NCBI GenBank assembly: GCA_030710605.1
Contig: CP092864.1
Location: 136,339,255 to 136,403,254 of the forward strand
From: Cordylochernes scorpioides
Lineage: Eukaryota; Arthropoda; Arachnida; Pseudoscorpiones; Chernetidae
DNA: 64,000 bases
Reading direction: 5' to 3'
Shown here piece by piece: positions 9,201 to 63,695 of this stretch; positions within the stretch are counted from its first letter, which is position 1; the number at the start of each line of letters is the position of its first letter. The translations under genes were made by a program, and so were the position numbers. The notes under the pieces are model-generated. The model was not told where the DNA came from. It was given only the letters and a program-made list of their open reading frames with translations, and made no database searches.

Positions 9201-12200
9201 GAAAGGGCATTTGACCCCAATTCTGGAAATTTTAAAAATTGATTAGTGTTGTTGTTTCTTATCCCCTTGTCTAAATATTACACGAATTCCATGAGATTAT
9301 TAGTTAATATTTATTCCAATAGATGGCGCAAACCATCAACTTTTAGTTACATGCTCAGGAGATATCTTTTTCTTAACTCTTTATTTTTCCTAACATTGGC
9401 TTTCTTTATATTTTTAACCATAGTGTAACTCTAATGCACACAACTAAATTCAAAATATTGATTTTAATTTAACCATATTTTTCTTAATTCCAATCACAGG
9501 CTAGTTATAAATTAAACTAAAATATTTTATTAAATCCAATATATGCCTTTTATTATCTAAAAAATTAAACTGTCTGTAATTAAATACTGACTCTAATTTG
9601 AGGTAGCATTTTGAGAATTGCAAAGTGAATATAAATGGAATTAGGATGAGCTGAAGTGATTCAATAACAATAAGTTAGGTTTAATTTGAACTGGAGAAAA
9701 AAGAAGTTTAAACTTACCCAAACAGCTTCTAGCATCAAGACCAAGCTCATATCCTTCCTGGCAGGAACACTGGAAGCTACCTATAGTGTTGCGGCATCGT
9801 CCGTTCAGACAGATTCCATATTGTGTCCGGCATTCGTCAACATCTGCACGGACATTGGCAAGTTGTAGCCATGTGGATAGATATTCTATATATAAGGTAA
9901 ATATAACTACAGGTAGAACCTTCAAGAGAGGACACCTCTCTACAAAGGACAGTTTCATTGCCAAAATTATCATTTTTACTACAGTAGAACCTCCCTGTAA
10001 AGGACATCTGATTTCAGAGCCAAATTGTCCTTTAAGGTGAGTTGTCCTCTTACTGGAAAGTTACTAAATAGTAAAAATGGTAATTTTACAAATGAAAACT
10101 GTCCTTTGTAGAGAGGTTTCCACTAGCGCGAGTGTTCTCTCATAGAGGTTCTACTGTATTTAGCAACTCTCTGGTAAGAGGACATATCTCCCTAAAGGAC
10201 ACTTTGTTTCTACAATTACGTGTCCTTCACAGGAGGTTCTACTGAATATGCGAATAGTTAAAATGTATGATACACATGTTCCCATCAACAGGAAACATGT
10301 CCAATTACTCCTGATTTAGGTATACAACTTGGATTATAGATTATAAACACAAGGTAATAAGACTTAATCCAAATAAATAGTGTCTGATGTTTCTGCAACA
10401 GCACTGTTACAATCATCAGACAAAATAACTGAATGCTGAAAATCCTTATATCTATAAAAATGAAATCCAAAATCGATGTTTGTTATTGCGTAGAGCAAAA
10501 TCTACTGAATCAATCATTATGAAATTTCGCATGTAGGTAGCTGAAGATTTCGTTTAACATATAGGCTATTCAAAAAACTAAAAAAGTTAATGTGCTTTTT
10601 TTTTTTAAATAAATAACCAAAAAGCGATAGTTCCAGCCTTTTACCGCTTGAGCGCAGCACTGGTCGCGACGATAAATGAATTTGATTGGTTAATAATTAA
10701 CACATGGTTAGTTTGTTCACACGATGAATGTTTTTAAAAGGTAAGATTATCCAATTGCCGTGAAACTTTAGGAAGTTATTTACTATACTACTGGGAAGAT
10801 TTCTGGTTTGAATTCGATTTGAAATAAATATTCTTTGCAATTTTATTTGCAAATTTTCTACTTTCACTCGCAAGCAGCGCCTCTCGCGGCATCTGGTGAA
10901 ATTACATTTATAAATTGTAAAAATGCTAAAATGTGTTCCAAGTATAATAAATTTAATTAGAAATATAGTAATATAATATTCCAAAGACGTTGTAAAAAAC
11001 TTGGCATTTCAATATTAATATATATTTAAAGGAAATATTGTAACGTTTTTGTGTTAAATGTTAAAATGTTGTAATGTTAAAATATATTTTTTACATTGTT
11101 AATTTAATTTGCTGTTGTTTTATAATAACGAAGATGCAAATTTAATTGCTGTTGTTTTTTATCGTTTGTTTATATAAAAAATTACATTGTATGTGATGAT
11201 GATAACAAAAATGAATTTTTAAATTAATATACATAATTCATTGAGAAATAAAAAAGAAATAATCTATATATATATATAAAATTGAATGTCTGTCTGTGTG
11301 TACTCTATAGATTCAAAAACCATACATCCAATCGCCGTGAAAATTTGGGATATTATTAGGTATATCCCCAGGAAGGTTTTTGAAAAATAATTTCTTGAAT
11401 ATCTTGAATATCCTTAGAGTTATTTGCAGATTTTTAGATTTAACTCGCAAGCAGCGCCACCATTGCGACGATGATAACAAGTTTTTTTATCTATAAGTTT
11501 TATTATCACTAAGTTTATTATCTTAAAGATTATTTATCAAAAGTAAGATTATCTCAGGATGACACGGCAATTTATTTGCGACAAGAATAATGATACAATT
11601 CCAAGGCGAAGATACTATTCCTTTAACTTCCAATTACCGAGGGAACCAATTAATATTGATTTTATTCAACTTATCGAGTATTTTTCAAGGGACCAGGAAA
11701 AAATGTTCACTAGATAAAACGATGATTTTGTAATGTAGAAAATTAGGAAAGACAAAATTCAGGATGACACGGCACACAGGGACTGGGAAAAAATGTTCAC
11801 TTTATCGAGAGATTCAAATTTATGAGTTTCAAATTATCAAAATATATATATTTTTTTAATATAAGTTTATAGAGAATTGTTTTAACAAATGTTCGTTAGA
11901 CAAACCTTTACTCGGGTAAAACCCCGGGCGAAGCCGGGTACATCCGCTAGTTAATTATAAAATCCACAAAGTGACAATATCTTATTTAAAAATTAATTAA
12001 TGTTTTTAAAAAAATTATGTTTCAAAAATATATTCAAACGCATATAACAATATTTATAAACTTGATAAGGCACAATTTGGATTATAGATTATAAACACAA
12101 GGTAATAAGACCAAATTCAAATAAATAAATAGTGTGTGACGTTTCGGTAACAGCCTTGTTACCGAAACGTCACACACTATTTATTTATTTGGATTTGGTC

Positions 12201-15200
12201 TTATTACCTTGTGTTTAATATTTATAAACGTTTATAAATCTATATATAGGTGGATTGGATGTTTTCTAGAATCGTTTTAACAAATGTTCGTTAGGCAAAC
12301 TTTTACTCAAGTAAAAACCGGGCGAAGCCGGTTACATTCGCTGAATACAGTTATTTACAAATGTTCGTTTGTGGCAAGATACTATTCCTTCAACTTTAAA
12401 TTACAGAGTGGACCAATTAATATTGATTTTTTTCAACTTATCGAGTATTTTTAAAGGGACCTGGAAAAAATTTTCCAATTATTGAGAGTATAGGCAAGTG
12501 TAGATTCAATATAGGGATTGGATGTTTGCTAGAATCGTTTTAACAAATGTTCGTTAGGCAAACCTTTACTAGGATAAAACCGGCGAAGCCGGGAAAATAT
12601 ATATAAATGTTTGTCTGCAATGCACGCCCTCAATTTGTAACTAATCTCGCTGAAATTTGAACAGGACAGAGAGTTAAATCTGGAAGAGTTTTTGTCGCGC
12701 TTTAACCAAGAAAAATTATAATTAACCAGGTACTAAGCAACAATATTTTTTTAGTCAGAAATGATGATGACAATATTGCTGTATCATGCTTGATTGACAT
12801 AAACAAAATTCTTTAGGGGAATATTCACTGAAACAGACCACGGGCGAAGCCAGATAATAATTTTCAGTAGACAGGAACAAAATTCTACCTGCAAAACATT
12901 CACTCGAGCAGAAGACACACGAAGCCAGGTCATCTCTATATATAAAATATCGTTTCTCGGCCTTTTGGCTAAGATCATGTAGTTTATCTCTAGATATTTT
13001 TATTTATATATATCTTTTTAAAAATATATTCAGTAGAGAGAGTGGATATGTTTGCTCGAAAAATATATTTTATATATTATATAAATGTATAACATAACGA
13101 ATATTATTATCATTATTATCATAATATTCTGTGTGTGTGTGTTCCGGAATATTATTATCAATTATCAATAATAAATATATTATCAATAATATTCCTTAGG
13201 CAAACTTCCACTCAGATAAAACTCGGGCGAAGCCGGGTACACATCCGCTAGTACTAAATAAAAAAAGTATTGAACCAGTACTTTTGTGTCTGATTATGGT
13301 AAAAATGCTGTTGGTGAACATCAGACACTATTTATCTAGATTCAGTCTTAATCTAAAGTACACTTTGGCTCCGTAATTAGGTGTTCTTTACAGTGAGGTA
13401 GTTCTACTGTATTTAGCAACTCTCTGGTAAGAGGGCACCTCTCCCTAAAGGACACTTTGGCTCTGCAATTAGGTGTTCTTTACAGAGAGTTAGTTCTACT
13501 CTATCCAGAACAACAGGTTACGAGTAGGGTCCATCGTACCAACACAATCCCCGTCTTGTCCCAGCTGAAATCCTTGATGACAAACACACTGGAAGGATCC
13601 TTGAGTATTCTGACAGGTTCCATTGGAGCAGGTCCGTGGCATTCTGGTGCACTCATCAATATCTACACAACCCACAGTTGGACTCCACAACTCTCTACTA
13701 CATCAGTAACACCACATACCTAGACACTGGTCGCCTGCTGGTGATAAAAAGAAGCCAGGGTTACAGGTACATCTGAAACTGCCTTCAAAGTTGGTGCAGA
13801 CACCATTTTGGCAGAGTCCTGGTCTGTCGGTGCATTCGTCGAGATCTGGAAACATTATACACTTGTGAGGTTGCCATATTTATCTCAGATGATACATTTA
13901 TGTACACAATATGCATAGAACACTCTCTATATGCACTCATGCACATAACTTTGGAAGTGGAAAGTCTTTATATCGCTGGTTATTTGTTTTTGAAGGAGAC
14001 AGAGGCAATTTTGTTCTCATTTGGTTATCTCGTGTTTCTTCAATAAAGGTCACTATAAAATCTTTCGGAGTTATTGTCTGAATCCCGATATACACGCTAA
14101 AAGGTACAACTTCCTTAAATTTTGTCCATGAGTGTATCTTTCAGAGTTATTGTCTGAATCCCAATATACATGCTGAAAGGTACAACTTCCTTAAGTTTTA
14201 TCCATTAGTGTATCTTTCAGAGTTATTGTCTGAATCCCGATATACATGCTGAAAGGTACAACTTCCTAAGTTTTGTCCATGAGTGTATCTTTCAGAGTTA
14301 TTGTCCGATTCCCAATATACATGCTTAAAAGGTACAACTTCCTTAAGTTTTATCCATTAGTGTATCTTTCAGAGTTATTGTCTGAATCCCGATATACATG
14401 CTGAAAGGTACAACTTCCTTAAGTTTTGTCCAAGAGTGTAGATGGAAATGGGGTTGTAAAAAGAATTATCTATTACTGTTTCTTTTTTAAAATAAAAATA
14501 CATTTTTCTGATTTTAACGAGAATGAAGAGAATTTTTGGAAATATATTGTTCTTCAGTGGTGATGGTCTCCCCATCATTTTCGCCAATTTAATCCACCAT
14601 ATCACTACAACTATTCTAACAATGGAGCTGGGTCTGATTGTTGCCATTGTTTAACTAAAATGGTTAAATCCAATTATTTAAATCTCTCAGCAACAATGAA
14701 TATTGATACCATTGTTACATCTTCAATCAACAATGGAGCTGGGTCTGATTGTTGCCATTGTTGAACTAAAATGATTAAATCCAATTATTTAAATCTCTCA
14801 GCAACAATGAATATTGATTCCATTGTTAGATCTGCAATCAACATTGGAACTGGGTCTGATTGTTGCCATTGTTGAACTAAAATTGTTTAATTCAATTGTT
14901 TTAATCTCTCAGCAACAATGAATATTGATTCCATTGTTACATCTCCAATCAACATTGATGCCATTGTTGAACTAAAATGGTTTAATTCAATTGTTTTAAT
15001 CTCTCAGCAACAATAAATATTGATTCCATTGTTATATCTGCAATGAACAATGAGGCTGGGTCAGATTGTTACCTTTGTTGAACTAAAATGGTTCAATCCT
15101 ATTTTTCTAATCTCTCAGCAACAATGAATATTGATTCCATTGTTACATCTCCAATCAACAATGTAGCTGAGTCTGTTTGTTGTCATTTTTGAACTAAAAT

Positions 15201-18200: not shown

Positions 18201-21200
18201 AATTATCAGAGAAAATACACTTTCTATCAGACAATAATAGAAACATAAAAAAATGTACATTATGTACGTATAGCATGTATATCAGGATTCAGACAATAAC
18301 TCTGAAAGATAAGGCACAATTTGGATTATATATTATACAGTTACGAGCGTCATTCCTCATCTCCTAATCAATCAGTCATCAGTTTTCATCTCTGTCACCG
18401 TTTGCTTTTTTTTTTGGTATGGTGCCCTCCTATTGGTTGGCTACGGTCATGCCACCTTTGCCCCCCCCCCCCCCCCCCCACTCGCTATTTCGTCTTTGTA
18501 ATTATTGTGTTGGAGCGGGTCGCTCCCTAAATAAATGCATATATTAGATAATAACCAAATGGAATTCTCTCTTTCTTTTTCCCTGTAAAAGACGCCTACG
18601 GAAGCCAACAGTACATAGACAGATAAAGCACATAGGCTATAGTTATTAACTAACATATGCATTTATTTAAGGCGCCAATTTATAATTGTAACAAATAGTA
18701 TTTGAATCAAAACATTCAATCGGGTAAAACACGGGCGTTGCCCGGGTCATTCGGCTAGTATATTATAAACACAAGGTAATAAGACCAAATTCAAATAAAT
18801 AAATAGTGTGTGACGTTTCGGTAACAATGTTGTTACCGAAAAGTCACACACTATTTATTTGGATTTGGTCTTATTACCTTGTGTCTGAAAGATATTTGAT
18901 ACACAGTGAAGTTGAAGACACACAAGATAACAAAGTGTGAACAAAATTGTTTTGTCTTGAGATTTGAATTTATTGCCTTAGTATTGAAATTAATATTTTT
19001 CCAATGAAATCTAATCTCTCCATTTATAAGATCAAGTGATAGTCTTTTCAATTTTTAAATCAGATTTTGGAAAATTCCATCTATTTGTAATGAGAAATAC
19101 ATTAGAAATTACTTGATGCTTTTTGCAGAATTTAAGAAAAAAAATGTGAGAAAAAGAACTTACCCTTTTAATGATGTGTTTTCTCAACTTCTTGAAATAG
19201 AGGAGAGCTTCAGATCCTGAATTCTTTAACTTGAAAAGACTATCACTTGATCTTATAAATGGAGAGATTAGATTTCATTGGAAAAATATTTACTTCTGTC
19301 TTCTTAAAAAAGACTTTTCACCTCCCTAAGTTTTGTTTAAGAGTGTATAGGTAGCATATTGGGTTAAATGATAAGCCATAATTTAGATTATAGATTATAA
19401 ACACAAGGTAATAAGACCAAATTCAAATAAATAAATAGTGTGTGATGTTTCGGTAACAGCGTTGTTACCATCTTCAGACAAAAAAGTACTGGATAACAAA
19501 TTTTACCACAGTATGTTTTAAATAGTTACTGTTATCAAGTGTGTACATTGTTTTACACACTAACTATTTAAAACATGCTGTGGTAAAATTTCTCATTCAG
19601 TACTTTGGTCTGAAGATGGTAACAACGCTGTTACCGAAACATCACACACTATTTATTTATTTGTATTTGGTCTTATTACCTTGTGTTTACAATCAGTTAA
19701 AGAAATGCTTCAACTTCCAATAGAGAATTGTAGACAGAGAGAATTTACCGAGACAATCCCGTAGACTGTGAGCCAGCTTGTAGCCATCAGGACAGCGACA
19801 CTCGTAGCTACCAGGGTTGTTGATACACTGTGCTGATCTACCACACGGAGGAGGGGATTGGTCGCATTCGTTGGCGTCTGTCCCATCATGTAGGTCAGTC
19901 AAGGTCATTCAAAGGTCACTTCAAAGTCACTCACCATCACAAGTCAACAACGAGGGATTGTAAACATAACCTCTATAGCAATCACATCGGAAACTTCCAA
20001 CTGTATTGATGCAATAGCCGTTCTGACAAACCATCCCTTGGCATTCATCCACATCTGGAACAAAAAGGTGATCTTAGATCTTCAGGAGGTAGGATTAATG
20101 TGGTGTGGGAATTCTTAAAAGGAATACAAGTGCAGTCAAACTTCCATTTGAAGACATATAAAGTACAATTTACAAGAAAAATAAGACCAAATCCAAATAA
20201 ATTAATAGTGTCTGACATTTCGGTAACAGCACAGTAACAACAGCAGTACAAAAGTACTGAATAGATTCATGCTAAAAGATACAATTTCCTTAAGTTTTGT
20301 CCATGAGTGTATATAGGTATGGAGGGTTGAGAATGGAATTATTTAACACTATTCCTTTTTTAAATGAAGGAAAGATTTTGCTGAATTAAACCTGAGAATA
20401 AAAAGATTTGGAAACACTTGATTCATCAGTGGTGATGGTCTTCCCATCAATTTCACCAATATAAGCTACAAAATAAATACAACTATTGTAACAATGTAGC
20501 TGGGTCCTATTGTTGTCATTGTTGAACCAATATGATTTAGTTTATGATAACCACAGAGGCGTCTGTTACTTATGTCAGAGGCGGCCATTTATTTTGGAGC
20601 TAAGTCGGCCTGCCACAGAGTAGTGCTCCCAGTCTTAATGACAAAGGCAGACGAATTCTACTTCACCCTGTCATGATGGTTGTCAAACACATTATTGACT
20701 GTATAGACTCATCCATTAATGAGCTCTACTCATCCCCAGCAGACACCATCAACAAGCTCTACAAGCTTGATACCTTAGTATGATTGAGTGGAGCTAAGAA
20801 AGAAGAAGAAGAGACAGAGTAGACTATACAAGGAGGCCATCTACTCACCGTCCACCTCTCCAGTGATGGGGTTGATGATGGTGCCTGGTGTAGGACTGCA
20901 CAGCTGATGGTATTCCTCTGGACACACATAGATACACCATGTCTTATAGAATATAGTCATTTTACAACTGTTATACAGTGGAATACCTCATTATAACTGT
21001 CTCTTTTAGCCTCTTTATTATTATTCCTAGTACTTATGGTACATCATGAAAAATGGAAATTTAATGGAAAAATTAAAACATTCCCGAAATGCCCCAAAAT
21101 GCAATTCCCAACCAGCCAGTCCTGAATATCTATTGAATTATATCAAATCCTCCAAAAATGACCTCTGGGAAAACCCCAGGACTATAATAGAAAAGCTGAG

Positions 21201-27200: not shown

Positions 27201-30200
27201 TAGGAGCAGCTGCACATGGCGTCTGTTCCTCATGTCAGAGGCTGCCATTTCTTTTGGAGCTAAGTCGGCCTGCCACTGAGTAGTGCTCCCAGTCTTAATG
27301 ACAAAGGCAGATGCATTCTACTTCACCCAATCATGATGGTTGTCATGCTTTACAAGCTTGATATGATTAAGTGAAGATAAGAAAGAAGAAGAAGAAGAGA
27401 TATCTTTAAAAGAAAAATAAAGGATATGAAATTTTATGCTACTATAATTATTTTATCATTTCATTCGGGGGTCAGTGGAAGGCTGGTTAAACCGTTTGGT
27501 TTTTGACCACTAGGACCCGGGTTTGATTCCCGCATTGGACACTTTTTTCTGTTTAAAAAAAAAATGCTCCAATGGCCCCCCGATTCTTGCAAAAGTCCAA
27601 CCCCACCAGCGAGTGCAAGTAACCAAACGGGGCTCTGGCACATTTGTAAGTGCAAAGTCAAACTGCTTTTCACATGTGTAGACATGTGGTGCGCTTACAA
27701 TAAAAGCAGTCTCTAATTACCCTCCTTGATTATCATGGCCTGTACCACGTGTACTAGGGATAAGCAAAAAAAAAAAGAAATTTTATCATTTCACAATTTT
27801 TTCACACATACACATTATAAACAAAGTCTTTAATAAGGCACAATTTGGTTTATAGATTATAAACACAAGGTAATAAGACCAAATTCAAATAAATAAATAG
27901 TGTGTGACGTTTAGGTGACAACGCTGTTACCGAAACGTCACACACTATTTATTTATATTTGGTCTTATTACTTTGTGTGTAAAGTTTTTAATAAATTACA
28001 TACCTTCGATTATTTCAAATCAAACAGAGTAAAGTAACAATATATCACTGATATATTTAAACAAAACAAACAGATCATCACCTAAGGGTAAAATAGTGAC
28101 ATTTTCTATTGCTAGGACATTCTAACAGTATCTGTGACCAAGATAAAGAACCACCTACCCACACAGTTGCGATGAGAGCTATCCAGGGTGTAACCTTCAG
28201 GACAAACACACATAAAGCTGCCAAAGGTATTGGAGCAACGACCTCCTAGACAGACATCTTCTAGCTCCGTGCATTCATCAATATCTGCACACACACAGCA
28301 ACAAGTTAGTGATATAAGGCACAATTTGTTGTGTGTTGTTGTTTCTTATCCCCTTGTGTAAAGATTACATGAATTATATGAACTCAAGGTAATAAGACCA
28401 AATCCAAATAAATAAATAGTGTGTGACGTTTCGGTAACAGCGTTGTTACCATCTTCAGTTAAAAGTACTGAATGAGAAATTTTACCAGTACTTTTGTCTG
28501 AAGATGGTAACAATGCTGTTACCGAAACGTCACACACTATTTATTTATTTGAATTTGGTCTTATTACCTTGTGTTTATAATCTATAATCCAAATTGTGCT
28601 TTATCATGAATTCCATGAGTTCATGCTCCTCAAGCTGTTTGATGAAAAGCAGCAGCCTCTCCCAAATCCTGTTCTAAATCTTGTTAGTGTTGTTTGATGC
28701 TGTCTTTTTAAGGTACAATTTGGATTATAGATTAGTAACACAAGGTAATAAGACCAAATCCAAATAAATAAAGAGTATATGGCATTTCAGTAACAGCGTT
28801 GTTACTGAAATGTCAAAAACTATTAATTTATTTGGATTTAGTCTTATTACCATGAGAGATAAGAAATGTCAAATTAAGGACATTCATTGATATCTGTTCA
28901 TACACATGTATGCAGAAGTTTATTTGCCCCAGGGTACAGGCTAAAAAATAATAATAATAAAGCCTCAAAGATACTCAGAGTGCCATGGACAGATATAAAA
29001 GAACAAATATTTCTATCTTAAATGAAATTAATCCTAATAGATACCTTAGAATCCCAAATATGTAAACAAAGACTAATCTACTTCGACACATAAAAAGAGC
29101 AAATGGTTTAAAAAAGGCACTGATGATGGGAAAATTTGAAGGAAAAGAGGAAGACCTGAAATTAGTTGGCTAGAAAGGTTCAAAAAACTACCAGAAAGTC
29201 ACTTGATGAGCTGCAAATAATAACACTAACAGATCAAATTGGAGAATATTTGTCCATATAGTCACCTAAAGTTGAACTCAACTTGAAGGTCACTAACAAT
29301 ACAGGCTATTTGTCATGTACATGCACAGACTAACACATGAAAAGGTCAAATTAACTGTAACCTTTGTGAAATGTGCACACTTTTGTCCACACAAACGTGA
29401 AAATACAAATTGTCTCGATGCATTATCTGCCCAATCATTTTCTTCTTCTTCAAAGCCTGTAAAGCTTGAGACTTTTAATGGTGTCTGCCGGGGAAGAGTA
29501 GAGCTCATCAATGGATGAGTCAGTGCAGTCAATAATGTGTCTTGGGGTTGCAGGCTGAGAATTGCACTTAGTACATAGTGGGAAAACCCTGTAACCATTC
29601 TGGAAAGTCATTGTCCGCAGATGACCAGACTTAAGTCTGGAAATCAAAGACTGTTGTTCTCTTGGGAGGACAGAACCGGTGCTTGTCCCTCCTGCTCTGT
29701 ACTGGTCATGTGTAGCATTAGATTCCCATTCCTGCAGGCATTGGGTTTTGATGGTACGGAGGAGGTCTCTTTCATCTAGTTGGGTGGTAGATTCTCTGGC
29801 TTCAGGTAGGGCCAAGAGCTCCAGCCTTTGCCAGAGAGTCAGCTAGCTCATTTCCAGGAATTCCAAAGTGAGCTGAAAGCCATTGCACTGTGACAGAGCT
29901 GTTGGCTGGGAGTCGGTTTACAGACTTAGCAATGTTCTTGAGGAGAGGTTCTTGACTGGAGAAGCAGCTTTGAAGGGTATAAATGGCTACTCTTGAATCA
30001 GAGTAGATTATTATTTTGCTTGGCGAGTTGATGGCTTTTAGAGCCGTAACTATTGCAGAGAGTTCCGATTTATAAACTGAAAGGTGTCTAGGGTGGGAGA
30101 GGGAGATTTTTTCCAGGATCTTATCTTTGTAGATAGCAATTCCACTGCCAGACAGTCCAGTTTCAAGTTGGATACCGTCAGTATAAATTGTGATGTCGAA

Positions 30201-33200: not shown

Positions 33201-36200
33201 TCTCCATCATTAGAACAATTTTTTCTTGGGATTCCCTGCAGGAGATTTGATGGTTGGTTTCCAGCAGGCAGGACTTCAGTTGATCAGAGGACTTCAAGGG
33301 ACCCAAGGATGAGAGCCTGGCATCAGGGAGGGGGACCATCCGAACTGTGTTGAGACGGACCAGTGAAAGAGATGGAATGCCCAAAGACGGTTTTTCTAGA
33401 CCATGTCTAACTCATTTCAAGGCTGTAGTTCTGCCAAGTTACTTAATGGTAGTGTATCCAACAATTATGCTCACTGCAACATTAGTTAACTCTGCTGTAT
33501 TAGTAGTGCCTAGGGTCAGATCCTGTACCACTCTCTATTCCAGCTACTCTGAATTATATTGGAATATGCCACGTTTTATATTACACCATTGTCTCGTTCT
33601 GTATTGCCAGGCTTAGGGACCTGATAAAAAAATTTTGAAATGAAAATGCCAATGAAAAAAGAATTTGATTTTAAAAAAATGCCAATGCTTCCCTATAGCT
33701 TTAAGCCCTTAAAGGTCCCTTAGCCTGACAAAGCAAAATAAAACAATCCTGTAAATAAAACGTGGATACCCAATATAATCCGAGTATCTGAAATAAAAAA
33801 TGGCACAAGGCCAAACCAAAGACACAACGGACACAACAGCTTTAACTATTGCTACAGGTAAGCACAAGAGAGGGTACACTACCAAAAAATAGCCTGACAG
33901 AACTACAACCAAGAAATAAGCTAGGCACAGCCTAGGAAAAACACGCCTAAGGACATCCATCTCTGACACCAGTCAAATCTCAACTACAACAATGGGACAA
34001 TCCTTGGATACCATTTCTTTACTTTTTTTTTATCTAAATAATTTTAGAGTTAAATTATATTATGTGGAAAAACAAAAAATATAGAAGAAATAGACTTAGT
34101 CAAAACTCTTTGTTATTTAAGAGACATTACAGAGGAGGGAAGTCTTTTGAAAATAGATTAGCTGGAATGTGGCACCCTAAATAGGATTTCAGTGGGAAAA
34201 AACAGAGAGACATCCATAAAGGACTTCTTTTTAAAAGATCTTCAGGATTATTATTATTATTATTTTTTTAAATAATATTTTAAATAATTTAGTTTTTAGT
34301 TTCCATATTTATTTACTTTTAACTGCTACTATTCAATTAGATTAAAATTTTATTTATATGTTATGTACAGTATATAATAATTTATATAAAACAATACTTA
34401 AAGTTTCACCGCATAAGTTTCTTTTCCGTGAAAAATCAATATTTATTTCAAAGAGAAATATCCACTATTTCTAACTTTTTTGGATGAAGTATGAAAGGGT
34501 GAAAATATGAAGAGTAATGGCGAACGGAAAAATAAAAGTGTCCAGGGGTGGGAATCGAACCCATCCGGGCAGATGCCATGTCCACTAGGCTACCCTGGAC
34601 GTATTTTTCCGTTCGTAAATAATACTTAAAGTAACTTATAATACATTGTGTAATGATATTTGCAACATCTTCGTACACATTTATTTTAAGCAAATCTTTA
34701 TTGTCTTAGTAAAGTCTGATACAGCCTTTTATTGTTTATTTTCGGAACGCCAAAAAGTGACAAAAACAAATCAAAAAGGGATGATGATAACCTGCGTCTT
34801 GCAGATTAACATTTTCATAGAAACATATATATATATACATATTTATTGCTAGCTATATATCACCATCTTCTCTCTTCAAACACGAAATCTCACAGGCGGT
34901 CTCCTCGCTCGAGGTGGGTTCCGCCTTAGGACAGGACCCTCCTCTTTCAAGGCCTCGGGGTCCAGCGAGCGAAGAGGCTCCAATGACTTTCCATCGTCTG
35001 TATCACTCTGAACCTCTGAATCTTGATCCGACCGCTGGCTAGTTAGTCCTGGCGACAGCGACTCCATATAACCTCTGTCTCGTACAACCTCCGAGATTAT
35101 GGCACTGGGACCTGCTCCTCTTGAGTGCTTGGGTTGACGCTCTCCATCTCCACTCTCATCTTCCTCACCATTCCTCCACCTTTTTCTAATTTGATCCCTG
35201 TGATAGGCCTTTACCTGTCCGTGGATCAAAATGGTGTAGACTCTAGTTCCCTTCTTGCCTACAATTTTTCCTGGGATCCATTTATCACCACCTCTAAAGT
35301 TTTTACACCACACTAAATCATCTATCTGGAATTCTTCCAAATGGGTTCGCCGATCATACTTCATTTGCCTGGCTTGCTGGTCCCTAACTCTAGATGCCAA
35401 GCTGGGATGTATCAACGATACTCTGGTTCGAAGCGCACGCCCAATAAAGAGCTCTGATGGAGTCTTTCCCGTTGTCACATGCGGGGTGCTTCGATATGCC
35501 AGAAGAACTTTTGATAAGGTGTCTTGAATGGTATCCCCAATTTTCCTTTTATTTTTATCCAGGGCAGTCTTAATTGTTCTAACCGCTCTTTCAGCCAAGC
35601 CATTACTTTGCGGGTGGTACGCCGGGATCAATGTTTGTTTAATTCCATTTCCTTCCAGAAAACCTTTCATTTCACTACCAGTAAACTGAGGTCCATTATC
35701 AGATACAAGTTCCTCCGGTAGACCATAGGAAGAAAAAAGTCGCCGTAGTTGCTCAATGGTTTTGCGTGTGGTGGTCTCTCTCATTGGGATGGCTTCGATC
35801 CACTTCGAATGACTATCTACTACTATTAATAAATTAATGTTTTCCTTATTTGCAAAATCAATGTGGATTCTTTGCCAAGGTCTGGTTGACCATCTCCAGG
35901 GTTGCCATTTTCCTTTATTTGGCCCATCCTGGGATTGCTGACAGCTTCTGCACTTATTTACCAAAAACTCGATTTGGGTATCTAGATTTGGCCACCAAAA
36001 ATGTGATCTTGCTACAGCCTTCATTTTGTTCATACCGGAATGAGTCTCATGAAGACAGTTCAACATTTTTATTCTGAGAGATGGTGGAATGACAACTCTC
36101 ATTCCCCAAACCAAACACTCCCCATCTACAGTTAGCTCAAGTTTCCTTTGAAAATAAGGTCTGAGGTGATCAGCCACCTTTTCAGGCCAGCCTTGCTGAG

Positions 36201-39200
36201 TATAAAATTTGGCCAATGAGAGCACTTCGTCTTTTTCAGTTTCCGTGGCAATTTCCTCTGCTGTGATCGGCAATTCTTCCACAAAGGATAAAGCATAGAC
36301 ATTATTTAATCTTGGAATTTCTTCACAGCCCACAGGAAAACGTGACAGAAGATCTGCATTCCCATGGTCTTGAGTTCTTCGAAATTTAATATCGTAAGTA
36401 TAAGCTGACAAAATAAGCGCCCAACGTTGCAATCTTGAAGTAGATAAGGTGGGGATTCCTGATCTTGAGCCCAAAATGGTCACCAATGGCTTATGGTCTG
36501 TAATAAGAATAAATTTTCTTCCATAAATAAATTGATGAAACTTGGTAACTCCATAAATAATGGCTAGAGCCTCCTTCTCAATCTGAGAATAATTCTGTTC
36601 TGCTACCGATAAAGTCCGTGAGGCAAACATAATCGGTCTCTCCTGGCCTTCTATAATATGTGACAACACAGCGCCCACTCCAATCTGCGATGCATCAGTG
36701 GCCAAACACAATGGCAAAGTCGCATCATAAGGGACTAGCACCCTCTCAGAGGTAATGCTATTCTTGCACTTGTCAATGGCCTCTCCACATTCCTTTGTCC
36801 AAACCCAAGGACGTTTTTTGTGAAGAAGCTCATGAAGAGGCTTCAAAAGCTCTGGCAAATTGGGTATGAACTTCCCATAAAAGTTTACCAAACCAAGAAA
36901 TGACCTTAATTCAGAGATATTCGTAGGCGTTTTGGCCTTCTGTATTGCTTGTACCTTATGATCTAAAGGTCTGATGCCCTCTTCCGTGACAAGATGTCCT
37001 AAATATTCAATTTCTTTTTGCAAAAATAGGCATTTTTCTTTCTTTAGTTTGATATTATACTTCGCCAAGCGAGCAAATATAGTCTTCAACAACGCCAGAT
37101 GTTCTTCAATTGATGCTGTGGCTATAAGGACATCATCAATATAACAAATTACACCTCCTATACCTGACAAAACCCTATCCATTACAGATTGAAAATAACT
37201 GGGCGCATTTGCCAATCCAAATGGCATTCTCTTAAACCTGAAAAGCCCTTTATGAGTATTTATCGTTAGTAACGGTCGGGTGCCTGGGTCCACCTCTAAT
37301 TGCAGATAAGCGTTCCTCAAGTCCAATTTAGAAAAGTATTTTCCCTTGGCCAATGTGGAGAATAAATCTTGCTGTGTGGGAAGGGGATAGGCCGCAGTGT
37401 CCAAATATTTATTTAGAGTTACCTTGAAGTCGCAGCAAATTCTGATCTCTTTATTTTTCTTCGGCACTACAACCACAGGAGTGGCCCATTTACTGCTCGC
37501 CACCTCACATAGATAACCCTTAGCCACCATTTTGTCTAATGCTTCAGTAACTGCTGGCCTAATGGCGAAAGGCACCGGACGAGCCTTATGGAAAATTGGA
37601 TTCACATCACACATGTTTACTGAAAATGTGAAACCTTTTATTGGTTCGGTTGTCTCCACAAATAGGGCTTGATTTTCCTTCAAAATTTCCTCAATGGTAT
37701 TTTCCACAGGCATATGTTTTACCGCGAAACAGCCCAATTTCAATCTATTTATCCATTCTCTTCCCATCAAAGCCCTCTTTTCTCCTTTCACCACCAACGC
37801 TCTAAGTTTGTAAGTAATATCTTGACACTCCACTTTGACATTGATTTTACCCAGAATGGGTACCACGGTACCATCATAAGTTCTTACAATAATACTCGCT
37901 TTTTCCAATTTCAAGTGTTGAAGACTATTTTTAAAATCCTTTTCTGATATCAGTGTTAGACCACTACCCGTATCCATTTCAAATTTAATAAAGTTTCCTT
38001 CTACTTTTAACTCCATCAGATAGGGAGGGTCACTTGAGGCAAAATTAATTTTATACTCAGGTATCGTCACGCTTATAATTTTCTGGACATACTCTTCCTC
38101 CTCTTCTTGGTCTCCTATCTGATGTATATTTCCCGGCTGATTCTGATGTTGCCTTAGATTTCTTCTACTGCTCCAACATATTGAGGCAATGTGTCCTTTT
38201 TTATTACACTTAAAGCATACCGCCTCCTTAAATCTACATAGTTCTTTATGCTGTTTACCACAATGTTTACATTTACCATTCTGGAAATTTGATTCAACCT
38301 TGCGTTCCATCCTCAACTTATCTACACAATCTTCACCCTGCTCCAAGTGAAATAATTTTGTATTTTTCTCGGCCGCTTCCATAGATAATGCTATCTCAAT
38401 TACTTTAGCTAAAGAAATGTCGCCCTCCGACAAAATTCTATTTTGTATTTTGGCATTATATAATCCACAAACCATTTTATCACGTAAAGAATCCTCCAGA
38501 AAATTTCCAAAGTTGCATGAGGAAGCCAAACGCTTAATTTCCACCAAGTAATCCGAGATGCTTTCTTCCTTTAATTGCATTCTTTTAAAAAAAATGAACC
38601 TCTCTACTACAATTGAGCGCTTTGGAGAGAAGTGCCTTTTCAAGATATCTATTAGGTTATCAAAAGTTTTATCTTTAGGTAGAATAGGACTGCACAAATT
38701 CTTCAAAACACCATATGTTTTACTTCCCATGAGGGTTAGGAGATAAGCCTTTTTCTTCTCATCCCCTGCCTCCTCCAATATGAGAAACTGTTCCAATCGT
38801 TCATAAAACGTTTCAAAAGTTTCAGTTTCCTCATTATATTCCTTAAATTGGTAACTAGCCATTTTTCTTTTCACTCTTTCTTAAATTTGCATCCTAAAAC
38901 TTTGCAATTTGTGACTTTTAAAATTTACTTTCAATTATATGCAAAATCAAAGATATTTTCTAAAAATATTTACTTCAAAATTCGAGGGTACTTACTCTTA
39001 TATCCTCGTCGCCAAATGCAACATCTTCGTACACATTTATTTTAAGCAAATCTTTATTGTCTTAGTAAAGTCTGATACAGCCTTTTATTGTTTATTTTCG
39101 GAACGCCAAAAAGTGACAAAAACAAATCAAAAAGGGATGATGATAACCTGCGTCTTGCAGATTAACATTTTCATAGAAACATATATATATATACATATTT

Positions 39201-48200: not shown

Positions 48201-51200
48201 AATAAATTTCTGTCTCATCCTGAAGTTTGTCTTCCCTAATTTTCCACGTAGTAATAATATGTATGTTTTGGTAACAGCGTTGCTACCATCTTCAGACAAA
48301 AGTACTGAATGAGAAAATATATCACAGCATGTTTTAAATAGTTACTGTTATCAAGTGTGTAAACAAGATAGCAGAAAAGAAGAAAATGGTTTTCTAAGAA
48401 CCCTAAAATATTTTTTTCACTTATAATTCAAAGAATATTAATTTAAGAGTTTTTATAGAAAACTATCTTCTTATTATCTGCTATCTTGTTTACACACTTG
48501 ATAACAGTAACTATTTAAAACATTTTGAAAATAGAGCAATCCATACTTAATTCATTAGATAATAAAAGGCATATATTGGATTTAATAAAATATTTATTTT
48601 GCCAATATTTCGGCTGGCTGAACGCCAACCTTTATCGAGGCATTACATTTTTGTATTGTGTATACAAAAATGTAATGCCTCGATAAAGGTTGGCGTTCAG
48701 CCAGCCGAAATATTGGCAAAATAAATATTTTATTAAATCCAATATATGCCTTTTATTATCTAATATTTAAAACATGATGTGGTAAAATTTCTTTTTTTTT
48801 CATGTAGCTCAGTGGTAGAACGTTCGCTTCACATGTGAAAGACCCCGGGTTCAATCCCCGACATCTCCAGTTTTTTTTTTTTTTTGGCTCAAAAATCATA
48901 CATTTTGGTTAGTAACTTGTAAAACCATATTTTCTCACCAATTTCTATTCTTCTTCTTTCTTATCTCCACTCAATCATATCAGGGTATCAAGCTTGTAAA
49001 GCTGTAAAGTGTGTCAGTGGCAGGCCGACTCAGTCCCAAAAGAAATGGCCGCCTCTGACATGAGGAACAGACACCGTGTGTAGCCACTCCTAACATAGAA
49101 TACAAACGCTGCTCATTAAGTACTTTTGTCTAATGGTAACAACGCTGTTACTGAAATGTCAAACACTATTTATTTATTTGGATTAGGTCTTATTACCTTA
49201 TAAAGAATTTGTTTAAATAAAAAGGCATATATTGGATCAAAATATCACTTATTTTACCTCCATAAATAAATATTTAAATAAAAAGGCATATATTGGATCA
49301 AAATATCATTTATTTTACCCTATATTGGATCAAAATATCATTTATTTTACCGTATATTGGATCAAAATATCATTTATTTTACCGTATATTGGATCAAAAT
49401 ATCATTTATTTTACCCTATATTGGATCAAAATATCATTTATTTTACCCTATATTGGATCAAAATATCATTTATTTTACCGTATATTGGATCAAAATATAA
49501 TTTATTTTACCGTATATTGGATCAAAATATCATATATTTTACCGTATATTGAATCAAAATATCATTTATTTTACCCTATATTGGATCAAAATATCATTTA
49601 TTTTACCGTATATTGGATCAAAATATCATTTATTTTACCGTATATTGGATCAAAATATCATTTATTTTACCATATATGGGATCAAAATATCATTTATTTT
49701 ACCTTGTTGTTAAGGAATCAATACCTAGATAAGTCAGTATACCAGGACTTACCCACACAGGCTGTCTTGGACGGTGTGAGCTGGTAGTGTGGTGGACAAT
49801 GGCACATGAAGGAACCAAGAGTATTGATGCAGGTGCCATATTGACATATCTCCGGGTTCTCACATTCATCAGTATCTGCACATTCAGTAACATGTCGATA
49901 ACACTGGCTCATCACTTGGCTTATCAACCAAGCCCTCCCTATATTTTTTAATTGCAGTAAGAACAGTTGAAGTTTATATTTAAAAAAAGAAACATTCATG
50001 CTTTAATGTTTCCATTTCTTATACAGTTAAACCTGTCTATAGCGCCCCCTCTAAATAGCACCTCCCTCTCTATAGCGCCCGATTTTAAATACGTAGTACA
50101 ATGAGATATTTACATTAAAAGTGACCTGTCTATAGCAACCTAATTTGGTGAGTTCCAAGAGGGGACGCTATAGACATGTTTAACTGTATATTTGTATTAT
50201 AAGAATGGTACAATACAAGGAGTACAATACTCACCAGTACAGTTGCCTCCAGAGGAGTCCAGCTGATAACCAACATTACAGATGCACCGGAACATTCCAA
50301 ATAGATTCTCACATTGTCCAAATACACAGATGTTGTGGAACATGGTGCATTCGTCAATGTCTGGAACATCAAACATTAGAATCATATGTAAATATGTATT
50401 TATATAGCTAACAAACATAGGGTAACAATGTGGGAAAATAGTACAAATATGATATTGTACTGGGATATGGTTCATATACAGTAAAACCCCGCTAAGACGA
50501 ACCATGGATATAACGAACCTTCCCTTATAACGAACCCATCGAAAATCCCAATTCCATTCCATTAAAATTACCATCATTATAACGAACTTTTCAATTTTCA
50601 AACTAGCGAACTATCGCTATAACGAACCCAATTTTGGTCCCAAAATATTAAATTCTATCAAAAATAACATGCTTATAACGAACTTCTAATTTTAATTCCA
50701 AAATTATAATTTTCAAAACTAATTAAAATTTTGTGTGAGCTCTAGCTCACAGATCGCAATTCAAAACAAAGAATTTAGCGACATTGGGTGTTTTTATTTA
50801 CGTTCTATTTTTATACTGCGCCCTTTTATAAATTTTTCATGCCTTATTGAAAACTAAATTTCTTAACTCTACATTAGGAAAATTCCTTAAAACATGATTT
50901 AAATTATTAAAACCAGTTTTAAAAGATAATGGAAGTGCCAAAGAAAAAGTCGCTCGTACCAAGATATCACTTGAAAAGAAATTAACCATCATAAAAGCTA
51001 TTGAGAGTGGTACATCGCAAGCGGAACTTCGGAAGAAAATGAAAATGAGCAAAAGTAGCATTTCTACGATATGGGGCAAAAAAGAAGACTATAAAAAAAA
51101 ATGCTACAAAGAGGAATCAATCCCAACTATTGCCGCTATCGTCAGTGTCATTATCCACTTTTAGAAGTCTTGTATACGTGGTTAGTACAAGCTAGGCTTC

Positions 51201-54200: not shown

Positions 54201-57200
54201 TTAAGCTAAACTAAAAATATCCTTATTAGGATTTGAAAAAAATGGTTGAATTAAAATAGGTGTTAAATTAAAGACAGTTAAATTGAAGAGGTTATACTGT
54301 ACCTTACTTTTCTAAATTTTTGATAAAAATAGGTGTCAAATTTATATATATAGTAGTACCTCTATTAGAGGACACAAGCATAACAGCCTAATTCAATAAT
54401 ATAGCGTTATGAAATATTAACTGGGAGGGTTCACCACTGATGAGCTAGGTTCTCTCATTAATTTATCATTGCAACTTTGCCTTTGCCGGTCCCAAGCCCG
54501 GATGAAAAAGGAGGAGGGAGAGCAGTAACAAGCTCACTAAAAAAACCTGGGTTCAGCTGGCCCGGCTGATAGTACCCTGTAAGGGCTCCTAATCCAGGGA
54601 TACAGGATGAGCAGCGTTTGTACTCCATGTTAGGAGCAGCTGCACATGGCGTCTGTTCCTCATGTCAGAGGCGGCCATTTCTTTTTGAGCTAAGTCGGCC
54701 TGCCACTGAGTAGTGCTCCCAGTCTAAATGACAATGGCAGACACATTCTACTTCACCCAGTGTGGAGATAAGAAAGAAGAAGAAAAAGAAGATATGTGTC
54801 AAAAAGAGTTCAAATTTGTCTTATATGTAAAAAAGGGTTCAGACAATATGTATATAAGACCACAATAATCTCCTTTTTTTTTTTTTTTTTAAAGAATATT
54901 TAAAGGTTATTTTATTTCTTATATATTCAAAATATTATATATATATAATACTAAAATTATTATATTAAAAATAATATAATAAATATATAGAATGTCGTTA
55001 AATTTTGAAATTTATAAAAGTTGATTTGGTTGTCCATATTGGTAATGGAAGAAATACAAGTCGGGGAGACTAGCTTCTTTTATAAGAGGACGATCGTACA
55101 AGTTTTCGGGCAAGATGTCTTTCTTATAAAAAATTTTTTTTACTCATTAAAGGACATCTTGCCTGAAAGCTTGTACAATCAAACTCTTATAAAAGAAACT
55201 CTTCTCTCCGACTTGTTTCTTCTTCAATATGTGTGTAAGTTTGACTTACCTCTGCAGGTTTGTCCATCTCCTCTGAAGCCGGGCTTACACTTGCAGTCAT
55301 AGGACCCGACAGTGTTGATGCATTCAGCGTTCACATCACAGACGGCAGTTCCCATTTCACATTCATCTTCATCTAACAGCAAACACACATGTTGTGTGAT
55401 CTGGTTACATGCGTGTTTGTGTTTATACCTTTGCATGCAGGATCATCTGGAGGTTTAGATGAGAAGCCGGGGTTACAGTGGCAGATGTAGGAACCAGGGG
55501 TGTTGGAGCAGATACCACTATGGCAGATATGGGGGGTGACGCTGCATTCGTCTATATCTGGGCACCCACAAAACTTTTTCAATAGGACAACACAAAGCTG
55601 ATGTAGAGAATTATAATGAATGAAGACTGCAAGAATTTCACTACATATTACAAGGTAATAAGAACAAATGCCTGCAGGAATTGAAATCTAATGCTGCACA
55701 TGACTGGTACAGAGCAGGAGGGACAAGCACTGGTTCTGTCTTCCCAAGAGAACAGCAATCTTTGATTTCCAGACTTAAGTCTTGTTATCTACGGACTATA
55801 ACTTTCCAGAATGGTTGCAAGGTTTTCCCACTATGTACTAAGTGTCAACCTGCAACCCCAAAACACAATATTTACTCTATTGATTCATCCATTGATGAGC
55901 TCTACTCTTCCCTGGCAGACACCATCAAAAGACTCAAGCTTATCCTCTTGTGCCAAGATTACACAAGTTCCATGCTCCTCGAGCTATTTTATGATAAGCA
56001 GCTGCCTCTATCAAAGGTCCTGTTTAGTGCATCTAATGCAAGCCAAAATATGTTCTGGAGCTGCAGGTGCCAAGCTATAATTTGGACAAGTGGGGTAGAT
56101 TTTGTTATTTTCTATTTTCAATAGCTTGAAATAGCCTGTTCTAAATCTTGTTAGTGTTGTTTGATGCTGTTTATTTCTGAAATATTAAAAACAGATGTAA
56201 AATAATATTTAAAAAACTGTTTTGTAGCTGCATTCCTAAACTTTAATATCAGAAAAAAGAGATAAATATAAGGTAATAAGACCAATTCCAAATACATAGG
56301 TGGTGTGTGACAGACAAAAGTACTGAATAAGAAAAAAATTACTGAATTACTGAATGAGTATGATACAAGAAAATAAGACCTAATCCAAATATTTTAAAAG
56401 TGTGTGACGTTTCGGCAACAGCATTGTCACCATCATCAGACAAGAATAAAACTTGTTCAAGAATTTAGTCTTGTCTGATGATGGTGAAAATGCTGTTGCC
56501 GAAACGTCACACACTATTAAATTATTTGGATTAGGTCTTATTTTCTTATATTATAATCTATATTCCAAATTGTGCTTTATCATACTGAATGAGTACTTTT
56601 GTCTAAAGATGGTAACAATGCTGTTATCGAAACATCACACTATTTAATTATTTATATTTGGTCTTGTTTCCTTGTGTTTATAATCTATAATCTAAATTAT
56701 GCCCTATCAGATAAGAGAGATGTTAAAGTGTGAAGTAACACAAGGAGAATACAAAGATGGTAGAATAGAAGAGTAAAGGAACAGCCTACCTACACAGGTT
56801 TTCCCGTCAGGGGATGGCATGACCCCGTTGGTACAATGGCAGCTGTAGGATCCCAGGGTATTGGTGCATTTACCACCTTTGCATATGTCCAGCTTGCACT
56901 CATCCAAATCTGTAACCATGCACTCTTGGTGATGACATTTTTTTTAATAGAGGAAGTTAGACATGACTAAGTCTGACTGTCACCTCCATGTGGTGGATAA
57001 GGGAATATATAGGGGATCGGTGGAAGGATGGTCTGAACCGTTAGGTTTCGACCGTTAGGACCCAGGTTCAATTCCCGCATTGGGCACTTTTTTTCTTATT
57101 AAAAAAAAAAAGAAAATGCTCCAATGGCCCCCGATTTTTGAAAAAGTCCAACCCCACTTAAGTTTTGTCCATGAGTGTATATTTCAGAGTTATTGTTTGA

Positions 57201-63270: not shown

Positions 63271-63317
63271 CTCAAGTTGTCTTAAAAAACTATTTTTCCT
63301 TATCTGTTATCTTGTTT

Positions 63318-63695
63318 AAACACTGATAAGGCACAATTTGGATTATAGATTATAAACACAAGGTGATAAGACCAAATCCAAATAAATAGATAGTGTGTGA
63401 CGTTTCGGTAACAGCGTTGTTACCATCTTCAGACAAAAGTACTGAATGACTTTTGACTTCAGTACTTTTGTAGGAAGATGGTAACAACGCTGTTACCGAA
63501 ACGTCACACACTATTTATTTATTTGGATTTGGTCTTATCACCTTGTGCTTGTTTAAACAATAACAGTACTATTTAAGAACTTGCTGTGATATTTTTTCTC
63601 ATTTATTCTTTTGTCTGATGATGGTGACAAAGCTATTGCCGAAACATCACACATTATTAAATTATTTGGATTTGGTCTTATTTTCTTGTAGGTTG
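63318..63695. repeat. HHR-A palindrome inserted in another HHR-A copy
   Basis: 63322-63549 is a complete long palindrome. Host HHR-A sequence (CTTGTTTAAAC, CACTGATAAC/AATAACAGTA) is duplicated on both sides, so one family member landed in another. Confidence 0.8.
63399..63432 (-). ncRNA. Hammerhead ribozyme motif (intact core)
   Basis: Minus strand CTGAAGA, T, GGTAACA/TGTTACC, loop ACGC, GAAACGTC. Its plus-strand partner at 63472-63505 has AGGAAGA instead of CTGAAGA. Confidence 0.8.

Follow-up and report, generated by a model that had tools for sequence, protein, structure and literature searches.

The 64,000-nucleotide stretch of Cordylochernes scorpioides contig CP092864.1 analysed here (positions 136,339,255 to 136,403,254 of the forward strand, hereafter the window) carries copies of a dispersed repeat family, HHR-A, whose units contain a hammerhead ribozyme motif. 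At 28368..28612, a short-ended HHR-A arm on the minus strand stands head to head with a tail-bearing arm on the plus strand. The element is flanked by CATGAATT repeats (28368-28375 and 28605-28612), whose score of 8 is under the cut of 10 used to call target duplications, so it was left outside the target-duplication counts. The plus-strand arm has an intact hammerhead core at 28498..28531, with a 3-bp stem I (TGT/ACA) and a predicted cut after 28531. In the minus-strand arm (28425..28458) the 12-nt core and stem II are intact but stem I is broken (TAA against ACA). According to family-level evidence, the 3' part of the plus-strand arm (28532..28606) would hold a tail hairpin as well as the two sites at which arms end, at about +41 and +74 relative to the cut.

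The family proved larger than the initial annotation had described, with 45 half-units recognized by an nhmmer profile in the 64-kb window. All seven hammerhead cores named there are present, with a complete CTGANGA/GAAA/TC core and no core mismatch in the window scan: 19444, 28425, 56406 and 63399 on the minus strand and 19610, 28498 and 56475 on the plus strand. Two further cores without mismatch lie at 10386 (minus) and 63615 (plus). The strict pattern reads CTGANGA, one base, stem II, a 4-nt loop, GAAA, N, N and TC, and the strict filter demands a complete core with at least 5 pairs in stem II and at least 2 in stem I. It retained seven motifs in the window and none in each of 20 Markov shuffles; 28425 and 10386 fail it because their stem I is broken. 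A looser scan allowing two core mismatches was unspecific, with 13-26 matches in each of ten Markov controls, and was dropped as evidence.

Several other elements of the window have the same outline. Both arms of the element at 19374-19705 carry intact cores (19444..19477, minus, left; 19610..19643, plus, right). A head-to-head element at 56361..56582, nested inside an older copy, is bounded by a 13-bp target duplication, TACTGAATGAGTA (56348-56360 and 56583-56595). Its core at 56406..56439 (minus) is a GGTGACA/TGTTGCC variant, and that of its right arm at 56475..56508 (plus) is complete but has a partly broken stem II, pairing only 5 bases in the scan. Another head-to-head element, at 63323..63547, lies within another HHR-A copy between 12-bp duplications, CTTGTTTAAACA (63311-63322 and 63548-63559). 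An intact core is present at 63399..63432 (minus), and one in the older host copy, at 63615..63648 (plus), had been missed before. The old copy previously placed near 10385-10425 does have an intact core (10386..10419, minus) and the stem II TGTAACA/TGTTGCA, but its stem I is broken. Of two compact elements, that at 12062..12216 has arms meeting inside stem II and a 13-bp duplication, AATATTTATAAAC (12049-12061 and 12217-12229), which scores 11 but only 9 with narrower flanks and was also left outside the counts; that at 27837..27980 has a 14-bp duplication, AAAGTYTTTAATAA (27823-27836 and 27981-27994). Near-intact cores with one mismatch occur at 48262..48295 (minus) and 56603..56636 (plus).

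Two other repeats of the window are in contact with HHR-A sequence. An array of ~111-bp tandem units at 14550-17989 is interrupted by HHR-A arm pieces at 16741 and 17462, which look as if they had been copied along with the array. A Helitron-like repeat with a CTAGT end after a GC-rich hairpin adjoins the HHR-A tail in four copies, each time at almost the same point (window 18470-18789 and 53492-53811, locus L014 near 975 and locus L027 near 977).

In the whole genome searched (2.62 Gb, 24 contigs), the exact HHR-A motif occurs 18,939 times (9,370 and 9,569 on the two strands) and the reversed pattern not once. A general core, CTGANGA followed after 14 to 20 nt by GAAACGTC, has 53,058 matches (26,651 + 26,407) against 16 (8 + 8) for its control. 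By eye, the first hundred or so of these along contig C1 belong mainly to HHR-A and to a second family with the stem GACAAAA/TTTTGTC. Of 66 distinct HHR-A units, 37 have an intact core, and 29 have in addition all seven pairs of stem II. The closing pair of this stem is GC in 44 units, GT in 11, GA in 5, AT in 2, TC in 2, AC in 1 and TA in 1, and in-family compensation is therefore weak. CpG sites and the free core position account for most of the variation among the units, and the copies behave as decaying relics. The stem II variation that the initial annotation described as keeping its pairing is, within HHR-A, mostly CpG decay and one-sided G-U changes, and it was rejected as evidence; real covariation emerges in the comparison with other Penelope families given below. 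The flanks common to HHR-A units consist of other repeats only, with no identifiable shared continuation, and viral contig scans and a PDB sequence search gave no matches.

The arrangement of the units was recorded in two samples. The first comprised the window and loci L002-L028, selected by similarity to the palindrome of the window, L059-L061, and L083-L102, taken in order along C1 from the exact-motif matches; L001, which is part of the window, and L062, which overlaps L061, were omitted. The second comprised 40 loci taken in order along C1 from the exact-motif matches with neighbours merged, skipping 3452166, 5098313, four places at 8804137-8804771, 11573402 and 11574400. Among neighbouring units less than 400 bp apart, the first sample has 79 head-to-head, 31 tail-to-tail and 15 + 6 same-strand arrangements; the second has 39 head-to-head neighbours against 12, 2 and 3 in the other classes. 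One locus, L098 (421-688), has three direct tandem units of 92 bp. Complete HHR-A insertions are ~130-490 bp long.

Target duplications, called at a score of at least 10 and controlled with swapped flanks, accompany 31 of 81 head-to-head pairs in the first sample (control 15/799) and 25 of 39 in the second (control 8/373), that is, 56 of 120 pairs against 23 of 1,172. With duplicate loci dropped, 49 of 52 measure 10-18 bp, with a mode of 13, and the others 22, 22 and 29 bp. The arms end at two sites, at medians of 41 and 74 nt past the cleavage site, the distal one including a tail of ~32 bp; ends were called from the stop of the profile match (84-108 or at least 112), and single cases can be miscalled. 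Every one of the 54 elements that have a target duplication and in which both ends could be called has exactly one tail (29/29 and 25/25 in the two samples), and 2 more have a duplication but one uncallable end; uncallable ends affect 20 pairs in all. Without the duplicate loci L007, L060, L061 and L137 the one-tail count is 50/50, plus the 2 uncallable; a lack of independence is likely for the two neighbours in L138 as well. The initial annotation had missed the head-to-head, palindromic build of most copies, the inequality of their ends and the fact that centres hardly ever coincide.

Nearly every element has a centre of its own, in many cases marked by filler or by an overlap of a few bases, and the one centre junction searched for in the 2.62 Gb occurs a single time. 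Compact copies joined inside stem II recur among the elements, a junction that can be explained by the palindromic stem itself. A near-shared junction links W28376, L002, L003 and L004, and the tail is on the same arm in the three whose tail can be placed. These four are not counted as one amplified palindrome: the exact junction is found once in the genome, and the flanks of L002 resemble those of the window copy. At L109 (384-502; C1:3003100-3004000), a full-length 5S ribosomal RNA (rRNA) sequence (114.3 bits) and a T run stand between the HHR-A arms of an element with a 13-bp target duplication. The second copy bearing 5S rRNA, L137, is a 99.4% duplicate of the whole L109 region. Two motif pairs at C1:8804137-8804805 have the same 193-bp spacing, and no 5S rRNA was found in L135, where the spacing is similar. 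Since the centres differ and one of them holds a 5S rRNA with a T run, most palindromes seem to have been made at insertion, from RNA, rather than copied as palindromes.

The genome also encodes autonomous Penelope-like elements, for which a search for the GIY-YIG endonuclease domain gave 17,015 candidates; 150 were scored and 146 of these were listed as matches. A strict hammerhead is present in 13 of 30 fetched GIY-YIG loci, against 0 in 20 shuffles, and in 14 of 30 if the stem I filter is left out. Among 20 further pieces 3' of GIY-YIG open reading frames (ORFs), hand-picked so that open frames were long and match types varied, 16 have a sense-strand hammerhead with no core mismatch, and L081 is a 17th through its match to the P1 pattern. 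Three autonomous families could be distinguished: P1 (stem I CTC/GAG), P1b (a longer stem I) and P2 (stem II GGGCAG/CTGCCT, stem I GAC/GTC and a G-C instead of a C-G helix III pair), and one ORF of each unites RVT_1, the reverse transcriptase (RT) domain, and GIY-YIG in a single frame. In an alignment of 16 rows chosen by hand from all families, each of which had already passed the stem II filter, 95.5% of 132 cells are paired, against 72.5% in shuffled alignments and at most 68.1% in slid ones; none of 500 shuffles reached the observed share, and 7 of the 9 pairs show double changes. The five rows from L063-L082 had also passed a stem I of at least 2 bp and those from L029-L058 had no stem I filter; window cores 28425, 19444 and 56475 were left out and 10386 was kept despite its broken stem I. 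An additional base separates CTGANGA from stem II in the rows of all families, and such a base before stem II is also a trait of vertebrate Penelope elements. The link to Penelope-like retroelements drawn initially is well supported by this recurrence of the same motif, with unrelated covarying stems, 3' of ORFs for RT and GIY-YIG, and by the Penelope-like tail and inverted arms of the copies: the HHR-A motif is a minimal hammerhead of the Penelope type, its cleavage being predicted.

The autonomous elements resemble HHR-A in other respects as well. Of 24 P1 and P1b 3' ends, which likewise form two classes, 11 match as far as 38-57 nt and 13 as far as 78-83 nt. Because 11 of 11 pairs of GIY-YIG matches less than 5 kb apart, chosen by eye from the 146 (contigs C1, C3, C13, C14, C22 and C24), are head to head, the long Penelope ORFs too seem to insert as palindromes. 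A further type of match is represented by L029, where a 476-aa frame at 1402-2829 has GIY-YIG at residues 34-114, endonuclease first, as in the Penelope elements named Naiad; it accounts for 12 of the 30 GIY-YIG loci, none with a strict hammerhead within 1.5-kb flanks.

Downstream of the cut, ATTTGGAT of HHR-A can pair with ATCCAAAT, and in 61 distinct units a mean of 7.33 of the 8 pairs of this tail hairpin is formed, against at most 4.59 when slid. Hairpins of unrelated sequence are predicted at the same place in P1, P1b and P2, with z values against shuffles of only -1.4 to -1.7 for each of them and for HHR-A. Of the two arm ends, the proximal one falls within the hairpin loop and the distal one immediately 3' of the hairpin. 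From these positions, and from the hairpin predicted at the same place in all four families, we infer that the tail hairpin would be the RT start hairpin.

The Rfam hammerhead models had no match in the window. This silence is uninformative, because eight loci with autonomous Penelope hammerheads were also missed (E up to 5), and the covariance-model check proposed by the initial annotation carries no weight. The absence of a visible RT was upheld: a tblastn search of the window and of 92 HHR-A loci, run with four frames taken from Penelope elements of this genome, found no Penelope coding sequence, and the same frames detected 29 of 29 control loci. Since no ORF for RT and GIY-YIG was found with HHR-A, we class it as a Penelope-type, ORF-less element and not as an autonomous member.

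According to these data, it is likely that HHR-A is an ORF-less Penelope-type retroelement, its unit being a pseudo-long terminal repeat (pseudo-LTR) that carries a minimal type I hammerhead and, 3' of it, the RT start region, and that it is inserted by twin priming in trans. The target duplications, the two end sites, the one long end and the differing centres fit a twin-primed Penelope insertion from two RT start sites. In the anole Penelope element, both strands are cut and extended in vitro and two RT start sites bound the tail (PMC11167929). For HHR-A, a Penelope RT/endonuclease would be supplied in trans and would cut both strands ~13 bp apart at each insertion. One complementary DNA (cDNA) would be primed per side, one from the distal site, keeping the tail, and the other from the proximal site within the loop of the tail hairpin. 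Synthesis of both would usually stop either inside the hammerhead or less than ~100 nt 5' of it, with microhomology or filler linking the two products head to head. The probable task of the hammerhead would be to trim read-through or tandem RNA; it may act only when dimeric or assisted by a protein, and may be masked in transcripts of finished palindromes. A broader proposal drawn from the strict one-tail rule, which we hold tentatively and are somewhat inclined to doubt, is that the two cDNAs of any Penelope-type insertion start at different, coordinated sites of one RNA hairpin, every insertion being a fresh palindrome. If true, HHR-A would be the simplest parasite of a twin-priming machine, consisting of just a hammerhead and a start hairpin.

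Several points weigh against the view of HHR-A as a trans-mobilised, twin-primed element. The full-length parent with a Penelope RT and GIY-YIG that the initial annotation had suggested seeking was not recovered: no autonomous element with an HHR-A pseudo-LTR was found among 50 GIY-YIG loci (20 of them 900-nt pieces), L034 giving one weak partial match, so that mobilisation in trans is a proposal. Among pairs without a clear duplication, 7 have two tails and 10 no tail in the first sample (of 81), as do 1 and 2, respectively, in the second (of 39). Mean divergence is 0.065 in the core and 0.04-0.05 in the flanks, so that the core is not better conserved, and the stems of the tail hairpin are barely better conserved than its loop (0.94 against 0.92). 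The near-shared junction of W28376, L002, L003 and L004 could reflect occasional copying of a palindrome. Moreover, the strict pairing of a long with a short end was not foreseen by in vitro work, in which the start site did not differ between strands (PMC11167929).

It is possible, although we think it less probable than not by some way, that the copies are 5'-truncated, dead-on-arrival products of an existing or recent autonomous Penelope-like element and that there is no separate ORF-less family. The anatomy of HHR-A matches that of the autonomous elements, whose ORFs are likewise head to head, and its arms vary in length; the reference starts 103 nt upstream, so longer arms are beyond measure, and 3 of 76 rows (L059-L061) reach this limit. 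However, truncated copies should be judged against the lack of any remnant of the four Penelope frames in the window or the 92 loci, where the search recovered all its controls, and of any clear HHR-A unit at the 50 GIY-YIG loci. A metazoan retrozyme, a non-autonomous tandem element spreading via circular RNA from canonical type I hammerheads, would suit the shortness of HHR-A, its type I core and the failure to find an ORF in it, and the three 92-bp units of L098 are a direct tandem. Nevertheless, head-to-head neighbours (79) far outnumber same-strand ones (15 + 6) within 400 bp, helix III is missing, unlike in the invertebrate retrozyme motifs described in excerpts of PMC7229834, and the ends coincide with Penelope tail sites, which makes a retrozyme very improbable. 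Target duplications and palindromic copies whose inverted arms are long would be expected as well of a foldback or MITE-type (miniature inverted-repeat transposable element) DNA transposon whose terminal inverted repeats resemble a hammerhead by chance. This explanation was rejected, and we give it almost no credence: the centres are nearly all different and internal sequence is not shared, the tested centre occurring once in the genome; the ends are unequal by a tail, the duplications vary in length, the motif is common to Penelope elements, and a full-length 5S rRNA with a T run at one centre is what RNA copying would leave.

A different doubt concerns the motif itself, which might no longer be a ribozyme and be kept only as part of the binding site of the Penelope protein. 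In the 28498 arm, hammerhead stems I and II alone have a predicted energy of -7.7 kcal/mol, and the best predicted fold of the 111-nt arm (-16.8) keeps stem II, adds the downstream hairpin and partly pairs the core. The motif is buried in predicted hairpins of -135 to -154 kcal/mol in two whole-palindrome transcripts, and a compact-palindrome transcript has a predicted fold of -101 kcal/mol. Such hiding of the motif would suit a protein site, as would a core that is not preferentially conserved and the anole element, in which a ribozyme mutation left insertion in vitro unchanged (PMC11167929). On the other hand, stems covary around an invariant core in three families, which would be needless in a mere protein site with unrelated stem sequence, and we regard the loss of ribozyme function as unlikely. 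Penelope hammerheads are described in excerpts of PMC6155905 and PMC7761336 as minimal and perhaps active as dimers, with their role unknown, and the anole hammerhead cleaves only with protein present (PMC11167929). Ribozyme activity of HHR-A is therefore plausible. Thus, of the "non-autonomous ribozyme retroposon" originally proposed, the ORF-less, Penelope-type retroposon is retained, while the term may overstate the role of the ribozyme.

The ribozyme type is already known, and the novelty of HHR-A is as a variant of element, valued for its insertion record. None of the listed titles and openings of abstracts described a palindromic Penelope hammerhead element that lacks an ORF and follows a one-tail rule. 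The role of the hammerhead and the mode of insertion of Penelope elements are described as unknown or only outlined (excerpts of PMC7761336; PMC11167929). The genome, which holds tens of thousands of intact motifs along with many complete insertions lacking an ORF, yields statistics beyond laboratory work on single elements. In vitro insertion assays are offered sharp predictions by the one-tail rule, by both end distances and by the variety of centres. The family also illustrates what dispersed minimal hammerheads in non-coding DNA can be.

Apart from HHR-A, the window contains a diverged 5S rRNA-like sequence at 43717-43833 (49.9 bits), with a second partial copy at 43856-43927, and a 32-bp tandem repeat at 49193-49768 that preserves open reading frames of 111 and 169 codons. 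ORFs for Gypsy-type RT, RNase H and integrase are found in opposite orientation at 34879-38880 (minus), a single open frame of 1,334 codons, and at 2650-5238 (plus); the two copies are 76% alike over 2.3 kb. Exon-like minus-strand frames of an EGF-repeat gene lie at 50200-50610, with similar ones at 9644, 25015, 49721 and 55376; Pfam recognized EGF_CA in the 50200 frame, and the other four are EGF-like by eye.

Among known systems, foldback and MITE-type DNA transposons share with HHR-A a palindromic outline, but they differ from it in that nearly all HHR-A centres are different, the ends unequal and the target duplications variable. Terminons have similar Penelope-like minimal hammerheads (excerpts of PMC7761336), but are giant and telomere-linked. 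Metazoan non-LTR retrozymes are closer, being short and non-coding, with a type I hammerhead and probably assisted by Penelope proteins; however, they are described as direct tandems (150-450 bp) whose hammerheads are canonical and whose RNA is circular, whereas HHR-A is mostly head to head and has the minimal motif (parts of PMC7229834). From the Penelope/Poseidon elements with GIY-YIG, HHR-A differs in having no ORF found, insertions of only ~130-490 bp, 18,939 intact motifs and a strict one-tail rule. It is like them in the minimal type I hammerhead without helix III, which sits in Penelope pseudo-LTRs (portions of PMC6155905 and PMC7761336). It is also like them in its inverted, head-to-head pseudo-LTRs with a tail of ~30-40 bp on one, as in the palindromic rotifer elements (excerpts of PMC3846280), and in its short target duplications and two staggered ends (PMC3846280, in part; PMC11167929).

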